The notes under the pieces: model-generated
Databases searched by the model: none
What the model was told of the DNA's origin: nothing
What the model saw: only the letters and a program-made list of their open reading frames with translations
Program-made: the position numbers and the translations under genes
In this document: one piece after another, positions 1 to 26,178 of the stretch
Layout: every line of letters starts with the position of its first letter
Numbering within the stretch: the first letter of the stretch is position 1
NCBI GenBank assembly: GCA_035764505.1
Contig: DASTZC010000016.1
Coordinates: forward strand, 1-41,744
DNA: 41,744 nucleotides
Direction of reading: 5' to 3'
DNA from: Candidatus Polarisedimenticolia bacterium
Lineage (GTDB): Bacteria; Acidobacteriota; Polarisedimenticolia; Gp22-AA2; AA152

Positions 1-242
1 ACGCCAACGTGGTTCCGTTCGTGCAGCCGATCTACATCAAGACGGCGCCCACGTGGGACGGCTGGAACAAGGTATGGGAGTTCCAGGGCGACACCACCAA
101 CGGTGCCGACTACACCCTGATCAGCCGCGCCAAGGACGGCGTCGCGAGCGCCATCACGGGCGGAATGACCAACGACTTTCTCTGCGACATCTTGTTCGCC
201 AACGGCCAGTTCTTCCAGTGGCCGCAGGGGACGCAGACCTAG
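1..242 (+). CDS. Pilin/pseudopilin-like protein, C-terminal part (5' end outside window)
   Basis: Only the last ~80 codons are present; the reading frame enters from the left edge, so the start is not visible. The tail contains TAPTWDGWNKVWEFQ, then YTLISRAKDG. This resembles the C-terminal half of GspG-type pseudopilins and many type IV pilins, where a D-G/P-W-G-x-x-(F/Y)-x-(Y/F) strand is followed by Y-x-(I/L)-x-S-x-G-x-D-G. The N-terminal prepilin signal that would confirm it lies outside the window. A strong terminator follows 22 bases after the stop, so this gene ends its transcript. The pilin genes further right make a pilus role plausible, but the assignment rests on a short stretch. 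Confidence 0.6.
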   Translation, partial: ANVVPFVQPIYIKTAPTWDGWNKVWEFQGDTTNGADYTLISRAKDGVASAITGGMTNDFLCDILFANGQFFQWPQGTQT

Positions 243-264
243 CCGAGCGCTTCAGCGCTTCCAG

Positions 265-296
265 GGCGGTGCCGGATTCGGCACCGCCTTTTTTTT
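265..296 (+). terminator. Rho-independent terminator after the pilin-like gene
   Basis: A perfect 10-bp inverted repeat, GGCGGTGCCG (265-274) and CGGCACCGCC (279-288), encloses a GATT loop and is followed by eight T residues (289-296). This is a textbook intrinsic terminator. It separates the pilin-like gene from the O-antigen-ligase-type genes downstream. Confidence 0.93.
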
Positions 297-310
297 GTCC
301 GCATGCCGCC

Positions 311-339
311 GCGACGGGGAAGGGGCGCTGCGCTACAAT
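311..339 (+). promoter_or_regulatory. Weak candidate sigma-70 promoter for the O-antigen-ligase pair
   Basis: TACAAT at 334-339 matches five of six bases of the -10 consensus. The hexamer 17 bases upstream (GCGACG, 311-316) matches only the central GAC of the -35 box. Some promoter is needed because a terminator lies just upstream. This one is weak and could be a chance match. Confidence 0.3.
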
Positions 340-396
340 CCCCCGGCCCGCGCATAGGCGCCGGGAGGAGAGTCTTCCCGGTTCTTCCAGGAGGCC

Positions 397-2088
397 ATGC
401 CCCACCGACGGCTCCCCGCGCGCTCCCTCCTGCTCTGCTCCCTCGTCGGGACGGCGGTCATTCTCCCGCCCGAAATGCATCCCATCGGGCTGGCCCTGTG
501 CTGCTTCCTCGCCTTGGTCCTTGGACTCGTCCTCCTATGCCGGATGCGCAGCGCGGCTGCTTTCGGCGGACTGGAGATTGCCGCGGCCGTCTGGCTCTTA
601 ACCCTGCTGCGCGTCTCCACCGATCGTCATGCGAGTGGGATGCTTCTCCTGTTCATCCTACTTGCCGCGACGGCGTTCAAGGCGGGCCGGGAGGAAGCAT
701 CCTCCAAGACGGGGGCGGATTCTTTGTCCGACACCATCATCCTGCTCGGTGGCGTGGTCTCGCTGTGGGGACTCTATCAGGTGGCGATTGGTCTCCCTGG
801 CGCGGCGCGGTCGCTTCGCGCGATGGGACAGCCGGAACTCGACGCCATGGTGCTGCGCGCCGAGTCGGGGCGCGCCTTCGGCCCCTTTCCCCTCCCCGCG
901 GATCTGGGAATCTACCTCGCCATGGCGCTGCCACTGGCCTTCCGGAAGCTGCTCGCCGAGAAAGGACGCCTGTCCCGAGCGGCCGGCGCGGCGCTTGCGG
1001 CGCTCCTGCTCGCCGGGATCGCCGCCAGCCGCTCCTACGGTGCCGTCCTTTCCCTGGGGGTCGCGGCCCTCCTCCTGCTCCCGATCACCCGGTTTCCGAA
1101 GAAGCTCCCCGCTACGTTGCTGGTCAGCGGGGCCGGAGCCGTCGGAACGGGGGCGTTTTTCCTGTCGCGTGGGGCCGAGCGCTTTTCCCCCCTGGCGCTG
1201 CGATGGCGCAACTGGGAGGCGGCGGCCTCGCTGTTCCTCGACAGTCCGGCCCTGGGAGCCGGACTGGGAGGATTTGGCGATGCCGTCACGCGGGTCATGA
1301 AGACCGGCATGAACGAAACGATCTTTGCCCATAACAGCTATCTCCAGGTCGCCGCCGAGACGGGCATGGTCGGGCTCGGGGCGGTGTTGCTCGGAGTCGC
1401 GCTCCTTCTGGGGCAGATGATCCGGGGCCTGAAGGGAGACCGCGACTCCGTCGGAAGGGCCCTTCTTTGTCTGGCTCCCCTGACCTTTCTCGTTCACAAC
1501 CTTTTCGATTTTTCCGCCTACCTGCCGTCGCTCCTGATCCCCTTCGCGGCGATGGCCGGCTGTGCCGCTCGCGATGCGCTCCCCGGGGTTCCTCCCCGTC
1601 CGGCCATCAGTTCGAGAGGGGGCTGGTCTTGGCAGCGTCCGGCGGCGTGCGTCCTGCTGCTGGCCTTGGGACTCGGTTGGGGGCTGCGCGAATCGCTGGC
1701 CGCCGCGCTGATCCGCAGCGCGAAAGAAGAAAGTCCTCTGCAGGCCGGGCAAGCCGCGCTCGCCCTTGGGAGAGCGGCGCGGGTTTCTCCATGCCACCCC
1801 GATCCGCCGGCGATGCTTTCCGAGATGAGCCTCGTCGGCACGCCTGACGATCCCAACCGCCTCAGAGTGGGGGAGGCGTGGGCACGGCGGGCGGTCCGGC
1901 TGCGCACCGGGCGGGCTTATGGCTACTACATCCTCTCGCTCTACCGCCTGGCGGCGGGAGATATCGGGGAAGCCTACGTGATGCTGGAGCGCGCCCGGGA
2001 TCGATACCCGGAGCGCCCGCTGTACCAGGAACAGGAGCGCCGGCTCAAAGAGATGAGAGGCAATCCGGCTGCCGCAGGCGGAAGCTGA
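397..2088 (+). CDS. O-antigen ligase/polymerase family membrane protein with C-terminal helical tail
   Basis: A 563-residue polytopic inner-membrane protein with roughly ten hydrophobic segments up to about residue 450. The Wzy_C/WaaL-type core is recognisable near residues 260-345. It includes a W-x-x-A segment, GAGLGGFGD and AHNSYLQVAAETGMVGL, the conserved H-N-x-x-L in a periplasmic loop. The last ~100 residues are soluble and TPR-like (YYILSLYRLAAGDIGEAYVML). The superfamily includes O-antigen ligases, polysaccharide polymerases and protein O-oligosaccharyltransferases (PglL, PilO/TfpO), which sequence alone does not separate. AGGAGG lies only 2 bases before the ATG, unusually close, but no better in-frame start was found. 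It ends 1 base before the next gene, a relative with the same architecture. Confidence 0.82.
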   Translation: MPHRRLPARSLLLCSLVGTAVILPPEMHPIGLALCCFLALVLGLVLLCRMRSAAAFGGLEIAAAVWLLTLLRVSTDRHASGMLLLFILLAATAFKAGREEASSKTGADSLSDTIILLGGVVSLWGLYQVAIGLPGAARSLRAMGQPELDAMVLRAESGRAFGPFPLPADLGIYLAMALPLAFRKLLAEKGRLSRAAGAALAALLLAGIAASRSYGAVLSLGVAALLLLPITRFPKKLPATLLVSGAGAVGTGAFFLSRGAERFSPLALRWRNWEAAASLFLDSPALGAGLGGFGDAVTRVMKTGMNETIFAHNSYLQVAAETGMVGLGAVLLGVALLLGQMIRGLKGDRDSVGRALLCLAPLTFLVHNLFDFSAYLPSLLIPFAAMAGCAARDALPGVPPRPAISSRGGWSWQRPAACVLLLALGLGWGLRESLAAALIRSAKEESPLQAGQAALALGRAARVSPCHPDPPAMLSEMSLVGTPDDPNRLRVGEAWARRAVRLRTGRAYGYYILSLYRLAAGDIGEAYVMLERARDRYPERPLYQEQERRLKEMRGNPAAAGGS

Positions 2089-2089
2089 G

Positions 2090-4006
2090 ATGCCTCCCGA
2101 GACGAAGCGCTTCCGGCTGGCCATCCTGATCGCGCTCCTTTTCCTCACCCCTTTCGGCGAAGGAGGAGCGGGAGCCGCGGGGCTTTTCATGAGCCAGAGC
2201 CTGATCGCGCTGGCCTGGGCCATTCTGCTTCTCGACCGCGGCGAATCGTCCGGGTCGCGCTTTCTGCCGACTTCCGTTGTCGTACCCCTCGGCTGTTTTC
2301 TCCTCGTTGCCCTGCTTTCCGGATCCTTCTCCGGGTACCCGTATGCTTCCTTCCTGCGGACTCTCGATCTGGTCACCTTCGTCGCGGTCCTCTTCCTGGC
2401 GGGCGGAGAAGGATGGGACCCTGAGGAGAAGGGATGGATTGCCGACGCGCTCCTTGCTTCGGCGACGCTGCAGTCCCTCCTGGTCATCGTCTCCGTCGCG
2501 CGCGGCACCCTCGCCAGCATCCTGGCGAATCTCGGTCTTTTGAATTCGAATCATGAAGCCGCTTACCTTCTCCTCGGGGCGCTGGTGACCCTTCCCCGGC
2601 TTCTCCAGCAGCCCAAGGGACCACCCGCCCTGGCACGCGGCACAGCCGTCCTGATCACGGGGATCGGCTTCTTCCTTCTCATGTCGCGCGGCGCTCTGCT
2701 CGGTTTGCTCGCGGGAGCGATTCTTCTGTTGAGCTACCGGAAATCCATGGGCTGGCAGGTCGGCCGCCGCCGCATCGCCTTGCTGCTGGCGGCAATTCTG
2801 CTGGCCTGCGCCGCCGGGGTGGCGGCCCGTTTCTGGCGTGCCGAGGACCCGTATCGCTATCAACGCATGCAAATCTGGCAGGCCGATCTCCGCACCTTCG
2901 CCCAGGGCCCGCTGCTGGGGATCGGACCGGGGATGTTTCGGCACGTGGCGCAGCGCCAGAACTTCCCGCTCGCCGGACCCATTCGTTTCGGTCGCACCTT
3001 CCAGACCCCGCACAGCGATCTCCTGGGCACGCTGGTGGAGACGGGACTGCTCGGCCTCGGCGCGGCGATTCTCGGCCTCGCCGCGATCCTGCGGCATCTG
3101 GCCTCGAAGGGGAGCAGGGAAGGGGGCTTCTCCTTCGGAGTCTTCCTCGCATGCGCGGGAATCGCATCCCAAGGGCTGGTGGAAGATCTCTCCACCCGTC
3201 CCGCGATCCTGATCTCGCTGGCCATCCTGCTCGGGATCGCCCTCGCCGGAACCGATCCAAGGCGGTCGAGGCTGTTCGTAGGGCGCGGCCGGTGGCACGC
3301 CCTGGTGGCCGGCAGTGCCCTGGCCTTCTCCTGGTACCTGGCCTGCGTGCGTCCGTTCCTGGCGTATCGCAGCGATGCCGCGATGCGCCGCGCCACGACC
3401 TATGCGGCCATGGAGGGGAAATTCCAGGAGGCCATCTGGCGCAACCCATATCAGGCTCCCACCTATCTCTATCCGGCCATCCTGTTCCTCTCCGCCGATC
3501 CGAAGCAGCGGCTGAGCCTCGATCTCTACGCCCGCTTCCGCCGTGATCTCGATCGGGGCATTGCCCTGAACCGCGCCTCCGCCGATGCCAGCCTGGCACT
3601 CGCCAGGCTCGAGGCCACCGCGTTCCGCGAGCTCTTCCACGATGTCCCTTCGATGGAGCGCAGCATCGAGGCCTATCGCGCCGCCGTGCGGCTCGCGCCT
3701 CACGATCCCAGGATCCGGGTGGAGCTGGGAGGATTCCTGCACGAGGTGCGGCGCGGCGCGGAGTCGGCGCGGCAGATGGTCCTCGCCTTGCATGAGGAGC
3801 CGACGTACCTGAGCGCGCGCTATCTCCTCAGCCGGCTTCGTCTGGAGAGCGGCGATGATGAGTCGGCCCGCAGCGAGTTCAGGAGAGCGGAGGAGATCCG
3901 CGCCGGGCTCGCGAGCTACAAGCCCGACAGTCCTTATGCCCGGGACATCAGCCGCGACCCCGCCCCGCTGCGCCAGGCCCTTCAAACCCAACTTCCTGGG
4001 GAATAA
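2090..4006 (+). CDS. O-antigen ligase/polymerase family membrane protein with TPR-like C-terminus
   Basis: A 638-residue protein with the same plan as its upstream neighbour: about ten membrane segments (residues 1-425), then a soluble helical-repeat region (about 430-638) with TPR-like pairs such as ASLALARLEA and AYRAAVRLAPHDPRIRVELG. The Wzy_C signature is near residues 260-335: WQADLRTFAQGPLLGIGPG, then TPHSDLLGTLVETGLLGLG, where the conserved His is followed by Ser rather than Asn. It starts 1 base after the previous stop, so translation is probably coupled. As polymerase or ligase it would use undecaprenyl-linked glycan in the periplasm; the TPR tail may bind an acceptor or partner. Two related copies in tandem suggest divided roles, for example polymerase versus ligase or oligosaccharyltransferase. 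Which does which cannot be told here. Confidence 0.82.
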   Translation: MPPETKRFRLAILIALLFLTPFGEGGAGAAGLFMSQSLIALAWAILLLDRGESSGSRFLPTSVVVPLGCFLLVALLSGSFSGYPYASFLRTLDLVTFVAVLFLAGGEGWDPEEKGWIADALLASATLQSLLVIVSVARGTLASILANLGLLNSNHEAAYLLLGALVTLPRLLQQPKGPPALARGTAVLITGIGFFLLMSRGALLGLLAGAILLLSYRKSMGWQVGRRRIALLLAAILLACAAGVAARFWRAEDPYRYQRMQIWQADLRTFAQGPLLGIGPGMFRHVAQRQNFPLAGPIRFGRTFQTPHSDLLGTLVETGLLGLGAAILGLAAILRHLASKGSREGGFSFGVFLACAGIASQGLVEDLSTRPAILISLAILLGIALAGTDPRRSRLFVGRGRWHALVAGSALAFSWYLACVRPFLAYRSDAAMRRATTYAAMEGKFQEAIWRNPYQAPTYLYPAILFLSADPKQRLSLDLYARFRRDLDRGIALNRASADASLALARLEATAFRELFHDVPSMERSIEAYRAAVRLAPHDPRIRVELGGFLHEVRRGAESARQMVLALHEEPTYLSARYLLSRLRLESGDDESARSEFRRAEEIRAGLASYKPDSPYARDISRDPAPLRQALQTQLPGE

Positions 4007-4031: not shown

Positions 4032-4060
4032 TGGACAAGGCCTGGAGGGGAATATATATT
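4032..4060 (+). promoter_or_regulatory. Sigma-70 promoter for the glycan operon, -10 inside an inverted repeat
   Basis: TGGACA (4032-4037) and TATATT (4055-4060) are separated by 17 bases; each differs from consensus at one position. Transcription would start near 4067, about 50 bases before the asparagine synthase start codon. The -10 box sits inside an inverted repeat, GGGGAA (4047-4052) and TTCCCC (4060-4065), which could be an operator. The AT-rich TATATAT tract stands out in this GC-rich region. Confidence 0.6.
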
Positions 4061-4117: not shown

Positions 4118-6064
4118 TTGTGCGGCATCTGCGGATTCTTCCGCTTCGGCGAGCCTCCCTCGGCGCTGAAAGGTGATGAGCCGATCCTGCGCCGGATGCG
4201 GGACTCGCTGATCCATCGCGGCCCCGACGACGCGGGACTCTGGCTGGAGAGGCGAGGGCGCGTCGGCTTCGGGCACCGGCGGCTGTCGATCGTCGATCTC
4301 TCCCCGGCCGGCCGGCAGCCGATGAGCAACGAAGACGGAGCGGTCTGGATCACCTTCAACGGAGAGATCTACAACCACCGCGGCCTGCGCGGCCCCTTGG
4401 AAGCGAAAGGCCACCGCTACGTTTCCGCCACCGACACCGAGACCATCCTCCATCTCTACGAGGAGGAGGGGGATGAGATGCCGCGGCGGCTCGACGGAAT
4501 GTTCGCCTTCGCGCTTTACGATGCGCGGAGCGAGGAGCTGCTCCTGGTCCGGGACCGGATCGGGGTGAAGCCGCTGTATTACGCCGTCGTTCCCGGCGGA
4601 TTGCTGTTCGCCTCCGAGATCAAGGCCATCCTCGCCCATCCCTCGATGTCGGCGACCCTCGATCTCGAGGCTTTCTATCACTACCTCACCTTCGTCTCGA
4701 CACCCGCGCCTCTGACGTTGTTCGCCGGGATCCGCAAGCTGCGGCCGGGAACGATGCTGAAGGTGGGGCCGCGCGGCAACCTGCGCGAGCAGGTCTGGTG
4801 GGACGCGATCGTCCCCGGAACTCTGGAGCGCGAAGACGAGGAGGAAATCTGCGCCGAGATCCTCCGGCTCCTGGAAGAGGCGGTCCGCAAGCGGATGATG
4901 TCGGACGTCCCCTTCGGCGTCTATCTGTCGGGCGGTATCGATTCCTCCGCCAACGTGGCGCTCATGGCAAAGCTGATGGACCGGCCCGTGCGGACCTTTT
5001 CCGTCGGATTCGAGAACCAACCCTCCTACAACGAGCTGGAGGAAGCCCGCGCCGTGGCCCGCCGGTTCGGATGCGATCACCATGAGGTGGTCCTGTCGGC
5101 CCGCGACCTGCAGGCTTCGGTCCCGGAATTGATCCATCACCAGGACGAGCCGCTGGCGGACTGGGTTTGCGTTCCCCTGTTCCACCTCGCCCGCCAGACG
5201 CGCGACAGCGGCACGGTCGTGGTCCAGGTGGGGGAGGGAAGCGACGAGCAGTTCTTCGGCTATCCCGGCTACCTCTCGGTCTTCGGGCTCGAGAGCGCGC
5301 TGGGCCGTCCGCTGCGGGCGCTGCCGTCCGCCGCCCGGGGATGGCTGCGCGACGCGGGAGAAGCGGCGGCGCGCTGGCTGGGACGCGGGGGCGACCGGCT
5401 GGAGCTCTTGCGCTGCGCCGCGGCGGCGCGCACCTCCTTCTGGGGCGGGGCGATTGCCTTCCGGGGGGACGAGAAGCTGCGCATCCTTTCGCCCGCGGCC
5501 CGCGACCGCTGCCGGCCGCTCGACTCCTACCATGTCGTCGAGGAGATCTGGGAGCGCATCGCCCGCGACAAGCCGGAATCCGATTTCGGCGAGCGCATGG
5601 TCTACCTGGAGCTCAAGCAGCGCCTGGCGGAGCTGCTCCTCATGCGGGTCGACAAGATGACGATGGCGGCGGGCATCGAAGCCCGCGTCCCGTTCCTCGA
5701 CTACCGGCTGGTGGAATACACCATGCGGATTCCCACCCGGCGGAAGATCCGCGGCGGGGTGCCCAAGTACCTGCTGAAGCGGGCGCTGAGGAACGTCCTG
5801 CCGGAGGAGGTCCTGCACCGCCGCAAGATGGGCTTCGGCGCGCCCGTTTCCGAATGGTTCGCCGGCGAGCTGGCGCGCTATGCCGAGAGCGTCCTCATGA
5901 GCTCCCGGATCCGCGAGCTGGATCTGCTCGACTACGAGGTCGTCGGGCAGCTGCTGCGCGAGCACCGGGAAGGCCGCCGCGATCGCGCCTTCCTGATCTG
6001 GAACCTGTTCAACCTGAGCCGCTGGTACGACTACTGGGTGGCCGGATTGCGGGAGGCGGCGTGA
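4118..6064 (+). CDS. asnB: Asparagine synthase (glutamine-hydrolysing), exopolysaccharide-cluster type
   Basis: Converts aspartate, glutamine and ATP to asparagine or, in polysaccharide clusters, may amidate another carboxylate. I chose the TTG at 4118 because it gives Met-Cys-Gly-Ile-Cys-Gly: the class II amidotransferase needs Cys2 as nucleophile after Met removal. A purine-rich CTGGAGAG lies a suitable distance upstream. An ATG at 4073 would add 15 residues and bury the cysteine. The 648-residue protein has the glutaminase domain (HRGPDD near residue 35, NGEIYNH near 83) and the synthetase domain with PP-loop SGGIDSS at about 271-277. Such AsnB proteins are common in exopolysaccharide and O-antigen operons, where the true product is often unproven. 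It is first in the operon and overlaps the flippase start by 4 bases. Confidence 0.93.
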   Translation: MCGICGFFRFGEPPSALKGDEPILRRMRDSLIHRGPDDAGLWLERRGRVGFGHRRLSIVDLSPAGRQPMSNEDGAVWITFNGEIYNHRGLRGPLEAKGHRYVSATDTETILHLYEEEGDEMPRRLDGMFAFALYDARSEELLLVRDRIGVKPLYYAVVPGGLLFASEIKAILAHPSMSATLDLEAFYHYLTFVSTPAPLTLFAGIRKLRPGTMLKVGPRGNLREQVWWDAIVPGTLEREDEEEICAEILRLLEEAVRKRMMSDVPFGVYLSGGIDSSANVALMAKLMDRPVRTFSVGFENQPSYNELEEARAVARRFGCDHHEVVLSARDLQASVPELIHHQDEPLADWVCVPLFHLARQTRDSGTVVVQVGEGSDEQFFGYPGYLSVFGLESALGRPLRALPSAARGWLRDAGEAAARWLGRGGDRLELLRCAAAARTSFWGGAIAFRGDEKLRILSPAARDRCRPLDSYHVVEEIWERIARDKPESDFGERMVYLELKQRLAELLLMRVDKMTMAAGIEARVPFLDYRLVEYTMRIPTRRKIRGGVPKYLLKRALRNVLPEEVLHRRKMGFGAPVSEWFAGELARYAESVLMSSRIRELDLLDYEVVGQLLREHREGRRDRAFLIWNLFNLSRWYDYWVAGLREAA

Positions 6065-7365
6065 GGTTCTCGCGCGAGGTGGCGACCACTTTCACCGGCC
6101 GAATCCTGCTGGTCGGGCTGGGAGTCGCCTCGTCGGTCCTGACGGCACGCTTCCTGGGGCCCGGAGGCCGGGGGGTCCTCGCGACCGTGACGGCGATGGC
6201 CGGCATCGGTCTGCAGCTCGGGAATCTGGGGCTGCACGCCTCGAACACCTTCCAGGTGTCGCGCCGTCCCGATCTCCTGGCGCCCATCTGGGCCAACAGC
6301 CTGCGCACCGCTTCGGCGCTCGGATTGGCCCTCGCCATCGCGGCGCTCGCGGTCGGCTCGGTCTTCCCCGAGATGCTGGGGACGATTCCCCTGCCTCTGC
6401 TCCTTCCGGCGGTGCTGTCGATTCCTTTCCAGCTGCTGGTCCTTTTCGGGCTGAACCTGCTCGTCGGGATGGGGCGGACGGCGCTGTTCAACGTTCTCGA
6501 GCTGGCTTTCCGCGCCGCCACGGTGGCGGGGCTGGCGGTGATGCTGATTTGGTTCGGCAAGGATGTCCGGTGGGTGCTCGGGCTGAACCTGGTGCTGGCC
6601 ATCGGCGCCGCGGCGGTCCTCGCCGGAGTGCTCGGGAGAATGGTCCGCAACAGCGGTGCTCCCGAATCGCACGGCAACATGACGCTGTTTCGCTCCGGCG
6701 TCGCTTATGGCGCCAAGGCCTACGTCGCCGCCTTGCTCGCCTACCTGATCGTGCGCTCCGACATGCTCCTGGTGAACGCCCTGCGGGGCACCGCGGAAGC
6801 CGGGGTCTACTCGATTGCCGTGCAGATTGCCGACCTGCTCTACCTGTTGCCGATGAGCATCGGGCTGGTGCTCTTCCCGCGCCTCAGCCGCCAGGGCGAA
6901 GGGGATCCGATCTTCGCCCTGAAGATTGCCCGGCACAACGCCTTCCTGATGCTTCTGCTGTGCGGCGGGGCCGCGGTGCTGGCTCCCTGGGCAATCCGCT
7001 TCCTGTATGGCGGCGAGTTCCTGCCCGCGGTGCGCGCCCTGTGGTGGCTGCTCCCCGGGATCTGGGCGTACGGCGCCTGCAATCCGATTGCCACGCAGCT
7101 CGCCTCCTCGGGAATGCCGATCTCGGCGGTGGTGGTCTGGATTCCGCCGCTGGTCCTCAACGTGGCGCTGAACCTGGTCTGGATCCCGCGCATGGGAATC
7201 GAAGGGGCCGCCGCCGCTTCCAGCCTCTGCTACCTGATGGTCCTGGTGCTGCACCTGGGATTGTGGAAGCGGCGGATCCGCGGCTCGATCTCCGACACGC
7301 TGCTGCTGAAGCGCTCGGACGTAAGAGAGATGACGGCGCTGGCGAGGTTCACCGCATGGTCGTGA
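6061..7365 (+). CDS. Polysaccharide flippase (Wzx-like, MATE/MOP superfamily)
   Basis: A 434-residue integral membrane protein with about 12 or more hydrophobic helices throughout. The N-terminus (REVATTFTGRILLVGLG, then TARFLGPGGRGVLATV) is the typical start of oligosaccharide flippases, with the conserved R-x-L-G-P-x-x-x-G. It would move undecaprenyl-pyrophosphate-linked repeat units from cytoplasm to periplasm. The start is a GTG whose last bases overlap the asnB stop (GTGA); longer in-frame extensions run inside asnB and are shadows. The order synthase, flippase, sugar-modifying enzymes is typical of Wzx/Wzy-dependent clusters. Confidence 0.88.
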   Translation: MRFSREVATTFTGRILLVGLGVASSVLTARFLGPGGRGVLATVTAMAGIGLQLGNLGLHASNTFQVSRRPDLLAPIWANSLRTASALGLALAIAALAVGSVFPEMLGTIPLPLLLPAVLSIPFQLLVLFGLNLLVGMGRTALFNVLELAFRAATVAGLAVMLIWFGKDVRWVLGLNLVLAIGAAAVLAGVLGRMVRNSGAPESHGNMTLFRSGVAYGAKAYVAALLAYLIVRSDMLLVNALRGTAEAGVYSIAVQIADLLYLLPMSIGLVLFPRLSRQGEGDPIFALKIARHNAFLMLLLCGGAAVLAPWAIRFLYGGEFLPAVRALWWLLPGIWAYGACNPIATQLASSGMPISAVVVWIPPLVLNVALNLVWIPRMGIEGAAAASSLCYLMVLVLHLGLWKRRIRGSISDTLLLKRSDVREMTALARFTAWS

Positions 7366-10300
7366 GGCGGAACTTCGAGGATCTCTACCGGCGCGAGGAC
7401 GATCCCTGGACGATCGGCGGCGCCGAGGCGCAGCGCTACGGGCAATACCTGGAGTGGATTCGCCGCTTCGCGCCGGATGGCGGGTTCCGCGCTGCCCTCG
7501 ATCTGGGATGCGGCAAGGGGGCCTTCACGGCGCGCCTCGCCAGACTCGCGCGCGAGACGACCGGGGTCGAGCTCTCCGAGATTGCCGCCGCGAAAGCCCG
7601 GCAGGCCCATCCGGGCATCCGCTTCCTTCAGGGAGACGTCCGGGATCTCGACCGTCTCGGCCTGCCCGTCGGCGGATTCGATTTGATCGTGGCCAGTGAC
7701 GTGATTGCCTACCTGACGCCACGCGAGGCCGACGTCTTCCTGGAGCGTGCCGCGCGGCTCCTGGCGCCGCAAGGACGCTTCTTTCTGGCCGCCTGGTCTC
7801 CCGGCGGCCGCTATTTCACCCCCGAGTCGCTGGAGCGGCTCGCGGCGCGGCGCTTCGCGCTGCTGCTGCGGCGCCTGCTTCCCAGCCGACACGCCGCTTT
7901 CATGATGCGCCGGCGCCGCACCGACGTGCTGCTCACCTACGATTACGAGACCTGGCAGCCGGTCCCGGAAGGGAAGCGGGTCGACTGGCGCGAGACGGTA
8001 ATCCACCCGACGGAAGCGCTGCTGGACGCGGCCGAGCGCTGCGGCGCGCGGCTGACCTTTTTCGTGGAGATGGGAGAGGTCCTGACGCTGCGCCGGCACG
8101 ACCCGGAGGTCTCGGCCGAAGTCGAATCGCAGCTGCGCTCCATCCGGCGACGTGGGCACGACCTGCAGCTCCACTTGCACCCCGAGTGGCTTCCCGAATC
8201 CTCTCCCCGCCACGATCCGGAGAGCGGATCCTGGGCGTGGGATCCGGATCGCAGCCGGATCCAGGCCCTCGAGGAGAATCCCGAATCGCTGGCGCGCCGG
8301 CTCAAGGAGACCCTCGAAGCGATCGTCCGTCCCGAGGATCCCACCTACCGGGTGCGGGCCTTCCGGGCGGGGAAATACCGCATCCAGCCGCACGCGGAAA
8401 TCTTCCGCGCCTTTCTGCGCGCCGGCATCGTCGCCGACTCGAGCGTCTGGCAGGGGGGCTGGTCCTTCGAGCATCGCTTCGATTTCCGCCGCGCCGGATC
8501 GCGGGCCGTCCCTTATTTCCCGGCGGATTCCGACATCAGTGTTCCGGCGCCTCCCGCGGAGGAAGGGGTGCTGGAGCTGCCGATCTGCTCGGCCGACGGG
8601 GAGCGCCTCGCGCTGGACGGCGCCTCCGCGAAGCAGCTGCTGCGGCAGGTGCGCGCGCTGCGCCGGCGCGATTACATCACCCGGCTCAAGGACGATCATC
8701 CCGACCTCTGGCGGCGCTCGGCGCGCTGGCTGAGGCGCCTGCCGTTCTGGAGCGACTGGCCACGATGGGACCGCGAGCCCGTGGCCGACTTCCACGTCGA
8801 AGGGGACGACACGCTGGTGGCCATCGGCCACACGAAGGCGCCTTTGCGCCTCGAGGAGATCGAGTCGTTCGTGCGCGCGCTGCGGAGCGATCCGGAGGTG
8901 CGCTTTCCGACCCTCGGGGAGGCCCTCCATGAGCAGCTGGCGGAGCGCGCCCGCCGGCGCCCCGATCCTGAGGAGATCCTCCAGCTGCAGGTGGAGCGTG
9001 AGACCGAGGCGGTCCTCGGAGAGAGCCGCAACGAAGCCCAGTCCTCCCATCTCCAGCAGATGATCCCGGTCGACCGCTGCCGCATCCTCGATTTCGGGTG
9101 CGGCGCCGGCTACTGGACGAAGGTCCTGGAAGCTCGCCACGGCTTTTGCGTCGGAGTCGATTACGGCATGCCCTTTCTCGAGAAGGCGGCAGCGGAGCAT
9201 CGGGTGCGCGTGGCCCGCTGCGATTTCAACCGGCTCCCCTTCCCCACCGGGGCCTTCGACGCCGTCTATGCCGACAATGTGCTCGAGCATTCGGCCGACC
9301 CCGCAGCCGCCCTGGCGGAGATCCATCGTGTGCTCGCCCGCAAGGGGATGCTCGCGGCGGCGCTGCCGCCCGACGCGCGGAACCGGCGGTACCCGGTCTC
9401 GGATCACCTCTGGAAGACCGACCGGAGGGACCTGGAGCGGCGCCTCTGGAACGCCGGCTTCAGCCGTATCCGCGTGAGCGAAGTGGACACGGTCGAGGCC
9501 TTCGGGATGGCCCCTTACCCGGCGGCCGGCAACGCCATGCTTTACGTGACCGCCTGGAAAGCAGAAGGGGAGGAGATAACCGATCGGCGGCGTGCCGAAG
9601 ACCTGATGGAATTCGTCTATCGCCGCCTCGATCCGTCGCGCAGCCAGCGCTCGCTGCGCCCCGAGGAGATCCTGAAGGACGGATTCGCCTGGTGTCTCGG
9701 CTACTGCGCCGTGCTCGGAGCCCTGGCGAGGCAGGAAGGAATCCCGAGCCGCTACGTCACCCTCGAAGCGCGCGATCATCCGCGCGGCCGCGGCACGGTG
9801 GGATTGGACACCCACGAGCTGGTCGAGCTGCGATTGTCGGGCCGCTGGGTGGCCTTCGATCCGATGGCCAACCGCGTCCTGGGGGGCAGCGTGGAGGAGA
9901 TCCTGGCCGACCCGGGGCTGGCCGATAAGGCAATGACCTCCCGCCTGGCCGACGAGCGCTTCCGGAACCGCGGCTATCATCTCTATTGCTCCGCCTTCTT
10001 CTACGAGAGGGTGATCCGCTACTGCCGGCGCGATGATCTCGCCTCCGGCGATCCCTGGAACTGGGTTCCGGTGCGGCGCCCGCGCCGCCGGCGCCCGGGC
10101 GGGCAAGTCCGCACCCTCCTGCTCACCGATCGTCCCGAAGCGGATCGCCAGCGCCTGGCCGAGGAAGCAGGGCGATCGGCGGATCGGATCTGGACCCGCG
10201 GCGATCTGGCCGCCCTGGGAGGCGCGCGCGCCGTGGCGCGCCGCCTGCGCGCCGCGCGCGAGCCGCGCCTGGAGATTCTCAGCGAGGATCTCGCCTGGCA

Positions 10301-11717
10301 CGAGCGGGCCATCCGCGTGCATCTCCTGGGGGCCTTTTCGCGCGCCAAGGAAAAGCGCTTCCTCGATCGCCGCGGCCGCAGCGAGGATCTGGGATGGTGG
10401 CCGCTCGCGAGCCGCCAGGCGCCGCAGTTCCTGGCCGGCTGGCTGAGGTCGGCGGGCGCCTTGGGAACGATCCGCGCCGCCGCCGAAGTCCTGCAACGGG
10501 TTCCGCGCATCGCGCCACGCCGCGACGCGGCGCGGCGACCGACCTCGGTGCTCTACCTGCGCTCCGATCTCTGGCGCGGCGTGCGCGCCGGAGGATCGGT
10601 CGGACATGTCGCCGGCATGGCGGAAGGTTTCCGCCGGGAAGGCTATGCGGTCAGATTCCTGGCCGCAGAGGTTCCGGAGGGAATCGATCGGGAGGCCATG
10701 CCGGTTCACGTCGTCCCGCCGCCGGCTTCCTATCGTGTCTCGCGCTCGGGCGGCCGCTTCGAGCATGCGTTCCATCTATTCGCCGCGGGACGCCAGCTGT
10801 ACCGTGACGACCCGCCCGGATTGCTCTACCACCGATTCGACGAAGGCAGCCTCGCGGGAGTTCTTCTCTCCCGCTCGCTCGGGATCCCGCTGGTGCTCGA
10901 ATACAACGGCTCGGGAGTCTGGATCGCGGACCACTGGGATCGGCCGCTGCCGCACCGCGGGACCTTCCAGGCGATCGAGGCGGCGAACCTGAAGCAGGCT
11001 CATTTGATCGTCACCGTGTCGGGCGTGCTGCGCGACGAGCTGGTCGAGAAAGGAGTAGAGCGGCATCGCATCCTGGTCTGTCCCAATGCGGTGGATGCCG
11101 ACGAATACCGGCCCGATCGCGACGCCGCGGCCGTCCGTCGGCGGCTCGCGCTGGAGGGGCGGAAGACCATCGGGTTCATCGGCACTTTCGGGCCCTGGCA
11201 TGGAGCACCGATCCTGGCCGCGGCCGCCGGAGCCATCCTGCGCGGCGATCCGCAGGCAGCGCTGCTCTGGATCGGAGACGGGACGGAGCGAGGCAGAGTG
11301 GAAGCCATCCTCGCGGAGCAGGGCGTGGCGGATCGCTGCCGCTTCACCGGACTGGTCCCCCAGAAAGAGGCTCCCGATTTCTTGGCCGCCTGCGATCTTT
11401 TCGTCTCGCCGCACGTCCCCAATCCCGACGGCTCGCGCTTCTTCGGCTCACCCACCAAGCTGTTCGAGTACATGGCGACCGGGCGCGGCATCGTGGCGAG
11501 CAACCTGGAGCAGATCGGCGAGATCCTCGAGGACGGGAGGACGGCGCTGCTGGTGCCGCCCGGAAGTCCGGAGGCGCTGGCGGAAGGCATCCTCCGCCTG
11601 CTGCGCGATCCGGATCTCGCCGCGCGCCTGGGCGATGCGGCCCGGCGCCAGGCGATCGCTCGCCACTCCTGGGAGCGCAATGCCCGATCGGTTCTGGACC
11701 TCGTCGAGTTCCTCTGA
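7356..11717 (+). CDS. Five-module fusion: methyltransferase, NodB-like deacetylase, methyltransferase, transglutaminase-like, GT4 glycosyltransferase
   Basis: One uninterrupted frame encodes 1453 residues with no signal peptide or membrane segment. Modules in order: (1) residues 1-185, class I SAM methyltransferase, NodS-like at the start, SAM loop DLGCGKG at 49-55; (2) 190-545, NodB-like carbohydrate esterase with TYDYETW (Asp196) and GHDLQLHLHPEW (His268, His273, His275), a variant of the usual HxxxH metal site; (3) 560-735, second SAM methyltransferase, DFGCGAG at 579-585; (4) 755-900, transglutaminase-like domain with Cys780, His820 and Asp835 in triad order and spacing; (5) 1060-1453, GT4 glycosyltransferase with GFIGTFGPWHGAPIL and PTKLFEYMATGRGIVAS. 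Residues ~905-1060 match nothing I recognise. ATG 7356 has GAGG 8 bases upstream and overlaps the flippase end by 10 bases; GTG 7362 is the alternative. These activities usually come as separate genes in polysaccharide loci. Confidence 0.87.
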   Translation: MVVRRNFEDLYRREDDPWTIGGAEAQRYGQYLEWIRRFAPDGGFRAALDLGCGKGAFTARLARLARETTGVELSEIAAAKARQAHPGIRFLQGDVRDLDRLGLPVGGFDLIVASDVIAYLTPREADVFLERAARLLAPQGRFFLAAWSPGGRYFTPESLERLAARRFALLLRRLLPSRHAAFMMRRRRTDVLLTYDYETWQPVPEGKRVDWRETVIHPTEALLDAAERCGARLTFFVEMGEVLTLRRHDPEVSAEVESQLRSIRRRGHDLQLHLHPEWLPESSPRHDPESGSWAWDPDRSRIQALEENPESLARRLKETLEAIVRPEDPTYRVRAFRAGKYRIQPHAEIFRAFLRAGIVADSSVWQGGWSFEHRFDFRRAGSRAVPYFPADSDISVPAPPAEEGVLELPICSADGERLALDGASAKQLLRQVRALRRRDYITRLKDDHPDLWRRSARWLRRLPFWSDWPRWDREPVADFHVEGDDTLVAIGHTKAPLRLEEIESFVRALRSDPEVRFPTLGEALHEQLAERARRRPDPEEILQLQVERETEAVLGESRNEAQSSHLQQMIPVDRCRILDFGCGAGYWTKVLEARHGFCVGVDYGMPFLEKAAAEHRVRVARCDFNRLPFPTGAFDAVYADNVLEHSADPAAALAEIHRVLARKGMLAAALPPDARNRRYPVSDHLWKTDRRDLERRLWNAGFSRIRVSEVDTVEAFGMAPYPAAGNAMLYVTAWKAEGEEITDRRRAEDLMEFVYRRLDPSRSQRSLRPEEILKDGFAWCLGYCAVLGALARQEGIPSRYVTLEARDHPRGRGTVGLDTHELVELRLSGRWVAFDPMANRVLGGSVEEILADPGLADKAMTSRLADERFRNRGYHLYCSAFFYERVIRYCRRDDLASGDPWNWVPVRRPRRRRPGGQVRTLLLTDRPEADRQRLAEEAGRSADRIWTRGDLAALGGARAVARRLRAAREPRLEILSEDLAWHERAIRVHLLGAFSRAKEKRFLDRRGRSEDLGWWPLASRQAPQFLAGWLRSAGALGTIRAAAEVLQRVPRIAPRRDAARRPTSVLYLRSDLWRGVRAGGSVGHVAGMAEGFRREGYAVRFLAAEVPEGIDREAMPVHVVPPPASYRVSRSGGRFEHAFHLFAAGRQLYRDDPPGLLYHRFDEGSLAGVLLSRSLGIPLVLEYNGSGVWIADHWDRPLPHRGTFQAIEAANLKQAHLIVTVSGVLRDELVEKGVERHRILVCPNAVDADEYRPDRDAAAVRRRLALEGRKTIGFIGTFGPWHGAPILAAAAGAILRGDPQAALLWIGDGTERGRVEAILAEQGVADRCRFTGLVPQKEAPDFLAACDLFVSPHVPNPDGSRFFGSPTKLFEYMATGRGIVASNLEQIGEILEDGRTALLVPPGSPEALAEGILRLLRDPDLAARLGDAARRQAIARHSWERNARSVLDLVEFL

Positions 11718-11727
11718 GAGGGAGCGC

Positions 11728-13785
11728 ATGGCCTATCGCCTGGAGCAACTCCGCGAAGACTTCCGCAAGGCGCTGGCGCTGCCGCCGGGGGAAGCCTTCC
11801 GGCGCTTCGCGGGACGGGCCCGCGGCTGCGCCGATCGGCTGCGCCATCGCCGCCGCCGGGAGCTCACCGAGGCGGAGTTCCTGGCGGCGCTTTGCACGCC
11901 GGCTGGCAGCTTGACGGAATTCGCCGCCGGGCGCGCGGCGCAGCCGCCCCTGATTGCGGCGGCGGCCGCGGCGCCCGCTCTGGCGCGCCTCCTCGAGTCG
12001 CGCGATCCCGCCAGTTTGCCTCCCATCCTGACGGCGGCGCGCGCCCTGCGCGAGGGGCGCTTCGACCTCCTCGGCTCGGGGAGCCGGCCTCTCGGAGAAG
12101 CGATCGACTGGCAGCTCGACTTCAAATCGGGAAAGCGGTGGGACGCTTCGGAGTACTCGCTCGACATCCTGCCCGAGCCCGACCTCGGGCACGACATCAA
12201 GGTCCCCTGGGAGCTCGCCCGGATGCAGCACCTTCCGACCCTGGGGATCGCCGCGGCCATCTCCTCCGATGAGGCGTTTCGCGCGGCGGCCATTCGCCAG
12301 ATCGCCTCGTTTCTGCAGGACAACCCCGCCTACCGCGGAGTGAACTGGAGCTGCACCATGGATGTGGCGATCCGTGCCGTAACTCTGCTCGCGGCGGAGG
12401 GTTTCATGAAAGGAGCGGGAGAGCCCGCCTTCTGGAGCGCCTTCTATCGCCATCTGCTGACCCATGCGCGCTTCATCCGCGATCATCTGGAGGACGGCCC
12501 CCTGCGCGGCAATCATTTCCTCGCCGATGTCTCCGGGTTGTACCTCTGCGCGCTGTCGCTTCCGGAGCTGGCGGAATCGTTCCGCTGGAAGCTGGAAGCG
12601 CGCGGCTTGCTGATCGGGGAGATGCAGCAGCAGGTGCGATCCGACGGCTGGGATTTCGAGGCCTCCACCTCGTACCATGCCTTCGCCACCGAGATGTTCT
12701 TCTTCCCGGCGCTGTTCGGAGCGCGGCGCGGAGATCCTTTCCCCGCCGCCTACCTGGCGCGGCTCGAGTCGATGCTCGCGGCGCTGGCGTCAGTCGTGCG
12801 GCCCGATGGGAGCTTGCCGCAGATCGGCGACAACGACGATGGCCGCTTCCTGATCGTCTCTCAGTACCACCGCCCGCGACGCGACTGGCGACCGTTGCTG
12901 GCGCTCGGCTCGTACCTGTTCCGCAACCCATCCTGGCTGGAGCTGTCGGGCGACGCCTGGGTGGAAGGGGTCTGGATGCTGGGCGAGGAGTTCCTCGAAT
13001 GGACCGATTCGATTCCCACGCCGCGCCGTGCGCATCCTTTCGCCAGCCGGGCCTGGCCGGAGTCGGGGTATTTCCAGCTTGCGTGCGGCCCCATCCAGAT
13101 GCTGGTAGACGCCGGAGGAGTCGGCCAGAAGGGTAACGGTGGACATGCCCACAACGACACCCTGTCTTTCGAGCTGCACGCCTTCGGCCGCGAGATGCTG
13201 GTGGACCGTGGCGTCGGCTGCTACACACCGTCGCTGGCCACGCGCAACCGCTTCCGCGCCACGGCCGCCCACAACACGGTGCGGGTGGACGACGAGGAGA
13301 TCAACCCGATTCCGCCGGCGACCTTCTCCCTGGTGTCGGCCGACGAGCCTTCGGCTTCGAGGTGGCGCACCGGGACGGCCTTCACCTATCTCTCCGCGGA
13401 GCATCGGGGTTACCTGCGTCTATCCGCCCCGCTCCTGCATCGCCGCTCGATCCTGCTGCGTCACCACGACGGCGAGCTGCAGATGGAAGACCGCTTCGAG
13501 GGAGCCGGCGCGCATCGTTATGAGGCCGGCTTCCACCTGCCTCCCGGATGGAAGGTCCGCACCGAGCCCCAGGGATGGATCGCATTCGAAGAGGGAGGGG
13601 AGGCTGGAATCAGCTTCCGCTGGATGCGGCCTCCGGAAGCAGCCGTCGTGCGCATTGAGGAAGACGAGCATTCTCCCTCTTACGGTGTGCGGGTCCCGGC
13701 GCTCGTAGTGCGCATTCTGTGGGAGGCGAGCGCCCCGCAGCGCATCCGCTATCGCCTGCAGCCTTTCGTGGGAGGCGGCGCATGA
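11728..13785 (+). CDS. Heparinase II/III family protein (uronate polysaccharide lyase-like)
   Basis: A 685-residue protein with the two-part architecture of the family. The N-terminal alpha-toroid (about 130-400) shows HDIKVPWELARMQ near 154, NWSCTMDVAIRAV near 207, GNHFLADVSGLY near 261 and a YHAF motif near 316. The beta-sandwich Hepar_II_III domain (about 430-680) carries GNGGHAHNDTLSFEL near 471 and TAAHNTVRVDDEE near 514. Characterised members cleave heparan- or alginate-like uronic-acid polymers. Copies inside exopolysaccharide operons, as here, may trim or modify the nascent polymer. No signal peptide is visible, which is puzzling for a lyase acting on exported polymer. ATG 11728 is preceded by GAGAGGGAG; the 3' end overlaps the next ATG by 4 bases. 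Confidence 0.9.
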   Translation: MAYRLEQLREDFRKALALPPGEAFRRFAGRARGCADRLRHRRRRELTEAEFLAALCTPAGSLTEFAAGRAAQPPLIAAAAAAPALARLLESRDPASLPPILTAARALREGRFDLLGSGSRPLGEAIDWQLDFKSGKRWDASEYSLDILPEPDLGHDIKVPWELARMQHLPTLGIAAAISSDEAFRAAAIRQIASFLQDNPAYRGVNWSCTMDVAIRAVTLLAAEGFMKGAGEPAFWSAFYRHLLTHARFIRDHLEDGPLRGNHFLADVSGLYLCALSLPELAESFRWKLEARGLLIGEMQQQVRSDGWDFEASTSYHAFATEMFFFPALFGARRGDPFPAAYLARLESMLAALASVVRPDGSLPQIGDNDDGRFLIVSQYHRPRRDWRPLLALGSYLFRNPSWLELSGDAWVEGVWMLGEEFLEWTDSIPTPRRAHPFASRAWPESGYFQLACGPIQMLVDAGGVGQKGNGGHAHNDTLSFELHAFGREMLVDRGVGCYTPSLATRNRFRATAAHNTVRVDDEEINPIPPATFSLVSADEPSASRWRTGTAFTYLSAEHRGYLRLSAPLLHRRSILLRHHDGELQMEDRFEGAGAHRYEAGFHLPPGWKVRTEPQGWIAFEEGGEAGISFRWMRPPEAAVVRIEEDEHSPSYGVRVPALVVRILWEASAPQRIRYRLQPFVGGGA

Positions 13786-15905
13786 AACAGGTGGTGCTGC
13801 GCGAAGGCAAGGTGGCGGTAGCCGAGGTCCCCGCGCCGGCCCCGTCGCCACACCGGGCGCTGGTCGCCACTGCGGCGTCGGTCATCAGCTCGGGCACCGA
13901 AGCGGCGGCGCTGGGGGCCGCACGCTCGGGACTGCTGGAGAAGGCGGCCGCGCACCCGGCTCCTTGGCGCCGCCTCGTGGAGGTGGCGCGCGAGGAAGGG
14001 GTGCGCGGGTTGTGGCGCCGCATGGCGCCGGCAGCCGGGAGCGATCTGGTCGAGATGGGGTACTCGGCGGCGGGAATCATCCTGCAGGCCGGCGAGGGGA
14101 TCACCCTCCCCGCCGGCTCGCGCGTCGCCTGCGCCGGCGCGCAGTTCGCCCATCATGCGGAGCTGATCTCGGTCCCCGAGCATTTGATGGCGAAGATTCC
14201 GGCCGGCGTCTCCTTCGAGCAGGCTGCCTTCGGAACGATCGGCTCGATCGCTCTGCACGGCTTCCGGCGCAGCGAAGCGGGGCTTGGGGAGACGGTGGCG
14301 GTCGTCGGTTTGGGGCTGGTCGGTCTGCTCGGAGCGCAAATCGCCCGCGCCGCCGGGTGCGAGGTGATTGCTTTCGACCCCGATCCGGAGCGCGTGGCGC
14401 TGGCGCGCTCGCTGGGGATCCAGGAAGCGCGAACTCCCGAGGAGGCCGATCCGGTGATGCAGGTATTGCACCGCACCGGCGGACAGGGGGCGGACGCGGC
14501 CCTGATCTTCGCCGCCACCCCGAGCGACGAGCCGCTGGCGCTGGCGATGCGGCTGTGCCGCAAACGCGGCAGGGTCGTGGTGGTGGGTGATGTCGGCATG
14601 AAGGCCGAGCGCTCGTTGATGTACGCCAAGGAGCTGGATCTGCGGATCTCGACCTCCTACGGGCCGGGTCGCTACGATCCCGGCTACGAGGAGAAAGGCC
14701 GCGATTATCCCTACGCTTACGTCCGCTGGACCGAGGGGAGGAACCTTGCCGCCTTCCTGGATCTCCTGGCCGCAGGCAGCGTCCGGGTCGAGCCGCTAAT
14801 CGAGCGCATCGTCCCGGTCGAGCAGGCGGAGGAAGCCTATCTCCTGCTCCGCGAAGGAGGCAGGAAGCCGGCGGTCCTCCTGTCTTTTCCGAGGGCTCCC
14901 GAGCCGGAGCGCGGCGCGCGCAGCGTGCGCCTGCTGTCGAGCAGAGCTCCGGGGTCGGCGCGCCGGGCCGTCGTGATCGGACCGGGCACTTTCATGAAGG
15001 AAGTCTTCCTCCCGGCCTTCCTCTCGCAGCAGGTGGCGGCAATCGAGACGGTGGTCGCGGGGACCGGCGCCGGCGCGCGATCGGCGGCGGAGCGCTTCTC
15101 CGCCCGCATCGCTTCCACCGACCTGGACGAAGCGCTCGCCGACCCTTCGGTGGATCTGGCCATCATCGGGACGCGGCATCACCTGCACGGCAGCCAGGTG
15201 GAGCGCTGTCTGCGATCGGGCAAGTCGGTATTCGTGGAAAAGCCTTTGTGCCTGACTTTCGAGGAGCTGGAGCGGATCCGCGCGGCGCGCGAGCAGGGGG
15301 GCGTCCTGGCGGTCGGCTTCAACCGCCGCTACGCACCGCTGGCGCGCAAGATGAAAGAGGCCCTGGCCCTGCTTCCCGGTCCACGCATCGTGCAGATTCG
15401 CGTCAATGCGGGATGGCTCGAGAAGGAGCACTGGACCCAGGATCCGGAGCAGGGAGGCGGCAGGCTGGTCGGGGAAGGGTGCCACTTCTTCGATCTGATT
15501 CCCTTTCTGGCGGGATCACCGATCGAGGCCGTGCGGATCGAGGGAATCGCCGACAGCCGCCTGCAGGTCCCCGACAACTTCCTGGTCCTCCTCCGCCTCG
15601 CCGACGGCAGCCTCGGGTCTCTGTCTTACACCAGCCAGGGAGGCGCCGAGCTGGGTAAGGAGCGGGTCGAAGTTCACTGCGCCGGAACCTCGCTTGTCCT
15701 CGAGGATTTCCGCGAGCTCGCCATCCATGGCCCCGGCAGGACGCGACGCATCGGTGCGCGGCAGGACAAGGGAATCACCGGCGAGATCCAGGCGCTCAAG
15801 GCGGCGCTGGAAGGCAAGCCCTCGGAGTTGATCTCCTGGGCCGAGATCGAAGCTGCCACCACCTGGACGCTGCGGGCCCAGGCCTTGCTGGAGCACAAGG
15901 AATGA
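13782..15905 (+). CDS. Bi-domain oxidoreductase: MDR alcohol dehydrogenase fused to Gfo/Idh/MocA dehydrogenase
   Basis: A 707-residue fusion. Residues 1-375 are a medium-chain dehydrogenase/reductase with a Rossmann loop VVGLGLVGLLG near 173. Residues 390-707 are a Gfo/Idh/MocA sugar dehydrogenase with a second nucleotide-binding start (AVVIGPGTF near 395), the family EKP motif (FVEKPLC near 484) and GEGCHFFDLIPFL near 565. This pairing is a known family, typically next to heparinase II/III genes in exopolysaccharide loci, exactly as here. It probably oxidises or epimerises a nucleotide sugar or sugar intermediate, but the substrate is not established. The gene overlaps both neighbours by ATGA. 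Confidence 0.9.
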   Translation: MKQVVLREGKVAVAEVPAPAPSPHRALVATAASVISSGTEAAALGAARSGLLEKAAAHPAPWRRLVEVAREEGVRGLWRRMAPAAGSDLVEMGYSAAGIILQAGEGITLPAGSRVACAGAQFAHHAELISVPEHLMAKIPAGVSFEQAAFGTIGSIALHGFRRSEAGLGETVAVVGLGLVGLLGAQIARAAGCEVIAFDPDPERVALARSLGIQEARTPEEADPVMQVLHRTGGQGADAALIFAATPSDEPLALAMRLCRKRGRVVVVGDVGMKAERSLMYAKELDLRISTSYGPGRYDPGYEEKGRDYPYAYVRWTEGRNLAAFLDLLAAGSVRVEPLIERIVPVEQAEEAYLLLREGGRKPAVLLSFPRAPEPERGARSVRLLSSRAPGSARRAVVIGPGTFMKEVFLPAFLSQQVAAIETVVAGTGAGARSAAERFSARIASTDLDEALADPSVDLAIIGTRHHLHGSQVERCLRSGKSVFVEKPLCLTFEELERIRAAREQGGVLAVGFNRRYAPLARKMKEALALLPGPRIVQIRVNAGWLEKEHWTQDPEQGGGRLVGEGCHFFDLIPFLAGSPIEAVRIEGIADSRLQVPDNFLVLLRLADGSLGSLSYTSQGGAELGKERVEVHCAGTSLVLEDFRELAIHGPGRTRRIGARQDKGITGEIQALKAALEGKPSELISWAEIEAATTWTLRAQALLEHKE

Positions 15906-17080
15906 GCGGCAAGGTGCTGATGTGGGAGCATCACTCCTGGGGAAGCCCGATCCGGGTCGGGGGTCGCGCGATGGCCGAGGGTTTCCTGGCGCGCGGCTGG
16001 GAGGTGGCCTGGATCAACGGCCCGCTGGCTCCCTGGAACCTGGCCGGAGGCAGCGAGGAGACGCGACGGCGGCGCCGAGCCTGGGCGACGGGAGGCGAGG
16101 AAATCACGGTGGGAGCGGGACGCCTGCATGCCTGGGCGCCGTTGTCTGGGATTCCTTATCGCTCCTATCCGATCCTGCGAGGCGGCTGGTTCCACCGCCA
16201 TGCCCTCGGTCTCGCCGTTCCCCCTTTCCTCCGGCATCTCCGCCGTCACGGCTTCGAGCGGGTCGATCTCCTCTGGCTCGCCACCGGCAGCCCGTTCCTC
16301 CCCCTGCTGGAGCAGGTGCCGCACGCCACCAGTGTCTATCGCCTGTCCGATGACACGGCGGCCTTTCCCGACACTCCTTCGAGCTATCGGTCGCTGGAGG
16401 AAGAGATGATGGGGCGCGTCGATTGCGTCGTGGCGACGGCCGCCACGCTGGCGGAGCGCGCGGCGCGCTTCTGCCGGCGCGTCCTCCTCCTTCCGAACGG
16501 CGTGGACCTGGCGCGATTCCGCCCGCCGGCGGGTGAGGAGCGGGGCGATAAAGCCGATCGGCGGCCGCGCCTGGTTTACGTCGGCGCCCTGGACAGCTGG
16601 TTCGACGGTGCCCGCATCGATCGGATCGCCCGCCGCTTCCCCGGTGCCGAGATCCTCCTCGCCGGCCCCTTGCGCGGCACGGCGCCCTGGGCTCAGCGGG
16701 AGAACGTGCGCCTGCTCGGAGCGGTTCCTCCCGAGGAGGTCCCCGCGCTGCTGCGCCGCTGCGACGTCGGGCTCATCCCTTTCGTGGATTCGAGGCTCAC
16801 CCGCGCCATCCATCCGGTCAAGCTGTACGAGTACTGCGCTGCGGGCCTGCCCGTCGTTGCCGCCGATCTCGACGAGATCCGGCGCATCGGCTCGCCGGCG
16901 CGCCTCGCCTCCAGCGACGAGGAATGGTTCGCGGCGATCGAAGGAGCGCTGCAGGATCCCGATCCGGCGGGCTCGATCGCCTTCGCCGCGCAGCACGACT
17001 GGAGCGCGCGCTTCGCCCGCCTGGCCGCATTCCTGGAATTGTCCGAGGCGGTGCACGGCGCGCGGCGGGTGGCGCGATGA
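15902..17080 (+). CDS. GT4-like glycosyltransferase
   Basis: A 392-residue GT-B glycosyltransferase. The N-terminal domain opens with GKVLMWEHHSWGSPIRVGG. The hinge region has LLLPNGVDLARFRP near 200, and the donor-binding domain shows VYVGALDSWFDGARI near 222 and HPVKLYEYCAAGLPVVAAD near 305-325, equivalent to the E-x7-E region of GT4 enzymes. It would add a sugar from a nucleotide donor to the growing lipid-linked glycan at the cytoplasmic face. Donor and linkage cannot be read from sequence. It begins with an ATGA overlap and ends overlapping another glycosyltransferase. Confidence 0.86.
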   Translation: MSGKVLMWEHHSWGSPIRVGGRAMAEGFLARGWEVAWINGPLAPWNLAGGSEETRRRRRAWATGGEEITVGAGRLHAWAPLSGIPYRSYPILRGGWFHRHALGLAVPPFLRHLRRHGFERVDLLWLATGSPFLPLLEQVPHATSVYRLSDDTAAFPDTPSSYRSLEEEMMGRVDCVVATAATLAERAARFCRRVLLLPNGVDLARFRPPAGEERGDKADRRPRLVYVGALDSWFDGARIDRIARRFPGAEILLAGPLRGTAPWAQRENVRLLGAVPPEEVPALLRRCDVGLIPFVDSRLTRAIHPVKLYEYCAAGLPVVAADLDEIRRIGSPARLASSDEEWFAAIEGALQDPDPAGSIAFAAQHDWSARFARLAAFLELSEAVHGARRVAR

Positions 17081-25344: not shown

Positions 25345-25346
25345 GC

Positions 25347-26174: not shown

Positions 26175-26178
26175 GGCG

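Follow-up and report, generated by a model that had tools for sequence, protein, structure and literature searches.

Does a type IV pilin gene followed by two genes for O-antigen-ligase-type membrane proteins mark a system for the glycosylation of pili, or do these proteins belong to a polysaccharide pathway that happens to neighbor pilus genes? The question is raised by the window analyzed here, a stretch of 41,744 nucleotides that runs from the first base of contig C16 of a 4.46-Mb Acidobacteriota metagenome-assembled genome. Three classes of pilin-specific O-oligosaccharyltransferases, TfpO, TfpM, and PglS, have been described, and their genes lie near those of their pilins (PMC12645811). 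The reading that we favor, with moderate confidence, is that the locus constitutes a pilin-glycosylation module in which the first of the two proteins (WzyA) would transfer a glycan to the pilin and the second (WzyB) would serve as its partner. The phylum follows from named relatives, among which Candidatus Polarisedimenticola svalbardensis points to Polarisedimenticolia as the probable class. The pairing of pilin and ligase-type genes, which recurs in much of the phylum and is fused in one family, suggests that these bacteria may decorate their pili with sugars by means of a two-part enzyme.

The first-pass annotation of this DNA had described a pilin gene with two O-antigen-ligase-type genes behind it, a terminator, and a glycan operon running into pilus assembly genes, and each of these elements is borne out. 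All features from the pilin to pilR lie on the forward strand. A type IV pilin gene, represented by its 3′ end (positions 3–242, 79 codons, C-terminus WPQGTQT), is followed by wzyA (397–2088; protein P0002, 563 aa) and wzyB (2090–4006; protein P0003, 638 aa). An intrinsic terminator with a 12-bp stem (263–298, that is, 263–290 plus eight T) separates the pilin from wzyA and is predicted to be strong (−32.6 kcal/mol for a 58-nt stretch, z −5.2); similar hairpins are found 3′ of pilA in relatives. The terminator does not separate wzyA from wzyB, the junction of which (1 bp gap) contains none. Downstream of wzyB, a weak sigma-70-like promoter match (4032–4060) precedes the glycan operon, which is recognizable by domain matches and comprises genes for an asparagine-synthase-like amidotransferase (asnB, 4118–6064), a Wzx-type polysaccharide flippase (6061–7365; PF01943, PF13440), a multidomain protein with two methyltransferases, a transglutaminase-like domain, and a GT4 glycosyltransferase (7347–11717), a heparinase II/III-like protein (11701–13785), a two-domain alcohol dehydrogenase/Gfo-Idh-MocA oxidoreductase (13719–15905), and three GT4-type glycosyltransferases (15902–19292). 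The multidomain ORF (7347–11717) spans 1,456 codons and is kept at 65–68% identity within the same family. A WecA/MraY-type sugar-phosphate transferase gene (PNPT, 19289–20284) follows, the product of which would initiate glycan assembly on undecaprenyl phosphate. This first-sugar enzyme is retained in relatives while the remainder of the cassette varies, and the genes for an FAD amine-oxidase-like protein and a GT4 glycosyltransferase (20295–22795) are conserved beside it. The operon then leads into ABC transporter genes (22823–25344) that occupy the position of pilHIG in a Myxococcus-type pil cluster, and which we provisionally name pilHIG from this position, and into genes for the prepilin peptidase PilD (25341–26174), a PilS-like sensor kinase (26173–28098), minor-pilin-type proteins with N_methyl motifs and associated proteins (28208–34755), and a PilR-like sigma-54 response regulator (34756–36195). 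Past pilR, the window holds genes unrelated to pili (36376–41744), coding for a class-III aminotransferase, a P-loop protein, an amino-acid (carbamate-type) kinase, and an ornithine/aspartate carbamoyltransferase.

Because the window begins at base 1 of its contig, the pilin gene is truncated by the contig edge. A full-length pilin, with 96% identity across the 79 residues in common, is encoded on contig C273 of the same genome. It carries the leader MRGQKG, followed by the N-terminus FTLIELLIVVAIIGIIAAIAIPNLL, and its 142 mature residues also end in WPQGTQT. This gene is succeeded by a terminator-like hairpin, a sigma-54 promoter match (TGGCACCGAGCTTGCT), the start of a second pilin, and the end of the contig. 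Since C273 stops inside the start of the second pilin, the window pilin probably represents the 3′ portion of this tandem copy, a join deduced from the two contig sequences. The C273 locus (L036, 1–1000) thus contains near-identical tandem pilins, each preceded by a sigma-54 promoter match, and the assembly breaks within the repeat. A sigma-54 promoter match is found upstream of pilA in most loci, as expected under PilSR control.

Both WzyA and WzyB belong to the O-antigen ligase/Wzy_C superfamily (PF04932), which they match with 45.5 and 58.7 bits, respectively, past the curated cut-off of 31.7 bits. Matches to NCBIfam families are weak and far under the cut-off (PEP_O_lig_1 for WzyA, IctB for WzyB). 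A predicted model of WzyA, obtained from a 28-sequence alignment (pLDDT 88, pTM 0.89), combines a membrane domain with the WaaL fold (residues 4–396; Z 22.3 and rmsd 4.4 over 347 aligned residues against WaaL 7tpg_B) with a C-terminal TPR domain (residues 430–560); the VIA-align matches below WaaL mostly reflect the TPR domain and are uninformative on the absence of other enzyme folds. WzyB likewise joins a Wzy_C domain to TPR repeats, and its sequence profile matches WaaL 7tpg_B with an E-value of 1.2e-11, along with TPR proteins. Neither protein shows a match to PglL_A or Wzy_C_2 at E up to 1. These two domains mark PglL and PglS only (PMC12645811), and their absence from both proteins rules out membership of either class; judged by domain content, WzyA and WzyB are neither PglL nor PglS. 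Within the Wzy_C region, a histidine is invariant in WzyA (H312) and nearly invariant in WzyB (H308). These residues are presumably equivalent to H324 of PglS, the mutation of which to alanine inactivates that enzyme (PMC6385209). In the WzyB of one relative (L058, 8410–10311), the conserved histidine motif reads TDSD, and the usual catalytic histidine may therefore be missing.

The association between pilin and ligase-type genes extends well beyond this genome. In 39 relatives (L037–L075), read as far as each contig reaches and with some elements not seen in some loci, the genes follow a shared order of pilS, pilR, pilA, in places a second pilin, wzyA, wzyB, variable glycan genes, PNPT, amine oxidase, glycosyltransferase, ABC transporter, and pilD. 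Among the 37 loci with enough upstream sequence, the window included, 36 have a pilin upstream of wzyA, the exception being L062; most of these loci come from the same class, and two (L046 and L054) come from outside it. The distance from pilin to wzyA is usually below 0.75 kb and reaches 1.8 kb, and in several families the second pilin gene and the start of wzyA overlap by 4 bp. A wider search through 396 genomes of the phylum uncovered additional members of the A family outside these bacterial families, and 20 of the loci that carry them were retrieved. B adjoins A in all of them except L131, which is cut by a contig end, and pilins stand beside the pair in 15 of the 19 testable loci, including one (L128) with the order B-A and three divergent pilins. 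The four remaining loci (L126, L127, L129, and L138) have A and B without a pilin, so the pair can occur away from pilins. Two of these, L127 and L129, from another family, consist of a minimal wzyA-wzyB-PNPT-amine oxidase module, and in L139 and L140 the wzyA-wzyB pair is flanked by pilin genes on either side. Over an equal span, a pilin-like ORF is present in 27/33 wzyA loci and in 0/25 loci of other Wzy_C genes, those of this genome included (Fisher p 5e-11, a value that overstates independence, as the loci are related). The linkage between pilin and wzyA is not due to chance.

Gene context alone cannot separate a ligase from a polymerase. Two observations nonetheless favor WzyA as the transferase: it is the protein whose gene adjoins the pilin, and in L046, from another class, wzyA occurs with a pilin ending in Ser in the absence of both wzyB and glycan genes (12521–18441). 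WzyA is best read as a putative pilin-dedicated oligosaccharyltransferase that would use the neighboring pilin as its acceptor. If WzyA is the transferase, WzyB is most simply a polymerase, and we infer that it probably polymerizes the repeat units. The L046 locus also encodes a nearby multi-TM protein with C-terminal TPR repeats (16510–18441) that appears TMTC-like by eye.

Phylogenetic analysis reinforces the distinctness of the two proteins. All WzyA sequences form one clade (SH-aLRT 100) and all WzyB sequences another (97), and 24 other Wzy_C proteins, 19 of them picked for the nearness of their genes to Wzz or OPX genes and five taken from this genome, fall outside both; E. coli WaaL, which shows no match to the A or B profiles, was excluded from the tree. 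Placement of both proteins among polysaccharide polymerases was the outcome that the first-pass annotation had set against its own proposal, and the tree instead locates WzyA and WzyB apart from the Wzz/OPX-linked Wzy_C proteins. Outside family f4, wzyA and wzyB usually overlap by 4 bp. In f4 they constitute a single ORF of ~1,230–1,270 codons, with eight full-length cases that each contain two Wzy_C stretches; the N-terminal halves score 275–357 bits against the A profile and the C-terminal halves 214–298 bits against the B profile. The AlphaFold model of the fused protein is poor (pTM 0.53) and carries no information on the interface, and an alignment that combined the fused proteins with separate A and B sequences was set aside because its B rows seemed to be placed on the A half. 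A bolder proposal is that in much of the Acidobacteriota the two proteins depend on each other as the halves of a single membrane enzyme, one half polymerizing the glycan and the other transferring it to pilins, with a natural fusion in one family. They would then represent a new class of pilin oligosaccharyltransferase that has its own polymerase; we put this forward tentatively and regard it as somewhat doubtful.

Among the alternatives, the one that best withstands these data, unlikely as we consider it, is that an LPS O-antigen cluster has settled inside the pil locus, with WzyB as the polymerase and WzyA (or the reverse) as a WaaL ligase acting on lipid A-core. The WaaA gene of the LPS pathway is present in 19/19 genomes tested, which keeps an O-antigen role in play, and WaaL is the best structural match of WzyA. 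The Wzx/Wzy route to O-antigen moreover works without an OPX exporter, and the enzymes that it uses are exactly Wzx, a polymerase, a ligase, and a starter of the WecA type; loci with A, B, and PNPT but no pilin do exist. However, this explanation accounts neither for the fixed adjacency to pilins in many families nor for the 4-bp overlap between pilin gene and wzyA, and the chain-length regulator Wzz is found in no cassette, among the matches listed.

Export genes bear more directly on a second alternative, which we regard as improbable, namely that WzyA and WzyB alike polymerize a polysaccharide that is secreted or associated with pili, comparable to the type IV pilus-linked exopolysaccharides of Myxococcus and Geobacter, and that the neighborhood reflects co-regulation only. 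The operon, with its asnB, heparinase, and oxidoreductase genes, does resemble Wzx/Wzy exopolysaccharide clusters. Among the matches listed, however, neither Wzz nor OPX (Poly_export) genes occur on the 40 pil-cassette contigs, some of which are short, although the cassette-bearing genomes have several such genes elsewhere and, again among the matches listed, a Wzz or OPX gene lies within 20 kb of 61/141 other Wzy_C genes. Their absence from the cassettes argues against a secreted polysaccharide, and in the tree A and B stand outside the export-linked Wzy_C proteins. It is very unlikely, finally, that the pair acts as a general O-oligosaccharyltransferase for periplasmic proteins, with a role like that of PglL and many substrates, and lies in the pil locus by happenstance: pilins are also glycosylated by general oligosaccharyltransferases (PMC12645811) and four A-B loci do lie away from pilins, but PglL-type genes are usually unlinked to those of their substrates (PMC12645811), whereas the WzyA/WzyB pair is linked, and both PglL_A and Wzy_C_2 are absent from it.

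The identity of the acceptor residue calls for a revision of the TfpO-based proposal. The pilins are short; complete ones from the order to which the window belongs end in WPQGTQT, and those from elsewhere end in WPEGxQQ and similar sequences. The C-terminal residue is Ser or Thr in 14/29 pilins and Gln in 12/29, and across relatives it may be T, Q, S, K, R, or D. Since a terminal Ser is not conserved, a TfpO-like terminal Ser provides no general rule, and a C-terminal Ser/Thr acceptor was rejected as a general rule on the same count. The C-terminal Ser acceptor suggested by the analogy with TfpO is not supported either for the window pilin, which ends in Thr, or for relatives that have the same ligase pair and often end in Gln. 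A TfpM-like use of the terminal Thr is possible in the window pilin; alternative acceptors are the internal residues Thr 119 (Ser/Thr in 86%) and Ser 104 (97%), which may be conserved for structural reasons. Of the original suggestion, the notion of a pilin-dedicated transferase with the O-antigen-ligase fold is strongly supported by synteny, by the natural fusion, by the separate clades, and by the lack of export genes, and its analogy with the Ser acceptor of TfpO is not supported in the form proposed.

In the pilin-glycosylation model, the WecA-type enzyme, the glycosyltransferases, and the Wzx flippase would build an undecaprenyl-linked glycan and flip it. WzyB, made together with WzyA and working as its partner, would most likely polymerize the repeat units, and WzyA would attach the glycan to a hydroxyl residue of the neighboring pilin before or during pilus assembly. 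The known pilin-specific oligosaccharyltransferases (TfpO, TfpM, and PglS) come from a few Proteobacteria, and a search covering part of the literature found no paper on pilin glycosylation in the Acidobacteriota. If correct, the model would extend pilin glycosylation to this large and little-cultured phylum. The natural fusion of two O-antigen-ligase-type enzymes would make the division of labor between polymerization and transfer testable, and the system would supply new enzymes for glycoengineering.

The proposed module shares features with each of the known systems. Compared by description, it resembles TfpO/PilO of Pseudomonas in having an O-antigen-ligase domain, a gene beside the pilin gene, and neither PglL_A nor Wzy_C_2, but differs from it in having two tandem or fused enzymes, C-terminal TPR domains, and a link to a whole glycan operon; the conserved Ser end associated with TfpO/PilO is replaced by Thr in the short pilin of the window and often by Gln elsewhere. 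Like TfpM of the Moraxellaceae, with which it is also compared by description, it would represent a pilin-linked type of O-oligosaccharyltransferase. TfpM accepts a C-terminal Ser or Thr, and the window pilin ends in Thr, a residue that its relatives do not consistently share at this position; unlike TfpM, the module features a tandem partner and TPR domains. With the PglS/ComP system of Acinetobacter, in which PglS is a pilin-dedicated oligosaccharyltransferase that can use an internal residue, it has in common the linkage to a pilin gene, but PglS possesses both PglL_A and Wzy_C_2, which WzyA and WzyB lack. WzyA has a fold in common with WaaL (PDB 7TPG) over residues 4–396 and departs from it in its added TPR domain and in the location of its gene, which adjoins pilins and is not in an LPS core cluster. 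The Wzy_C domain, lastly, is common to WzyA, WzyB, and the proteins encoded near Wzz and OPX genes in the same genomes, from which the pair differs in both clade and gene context.
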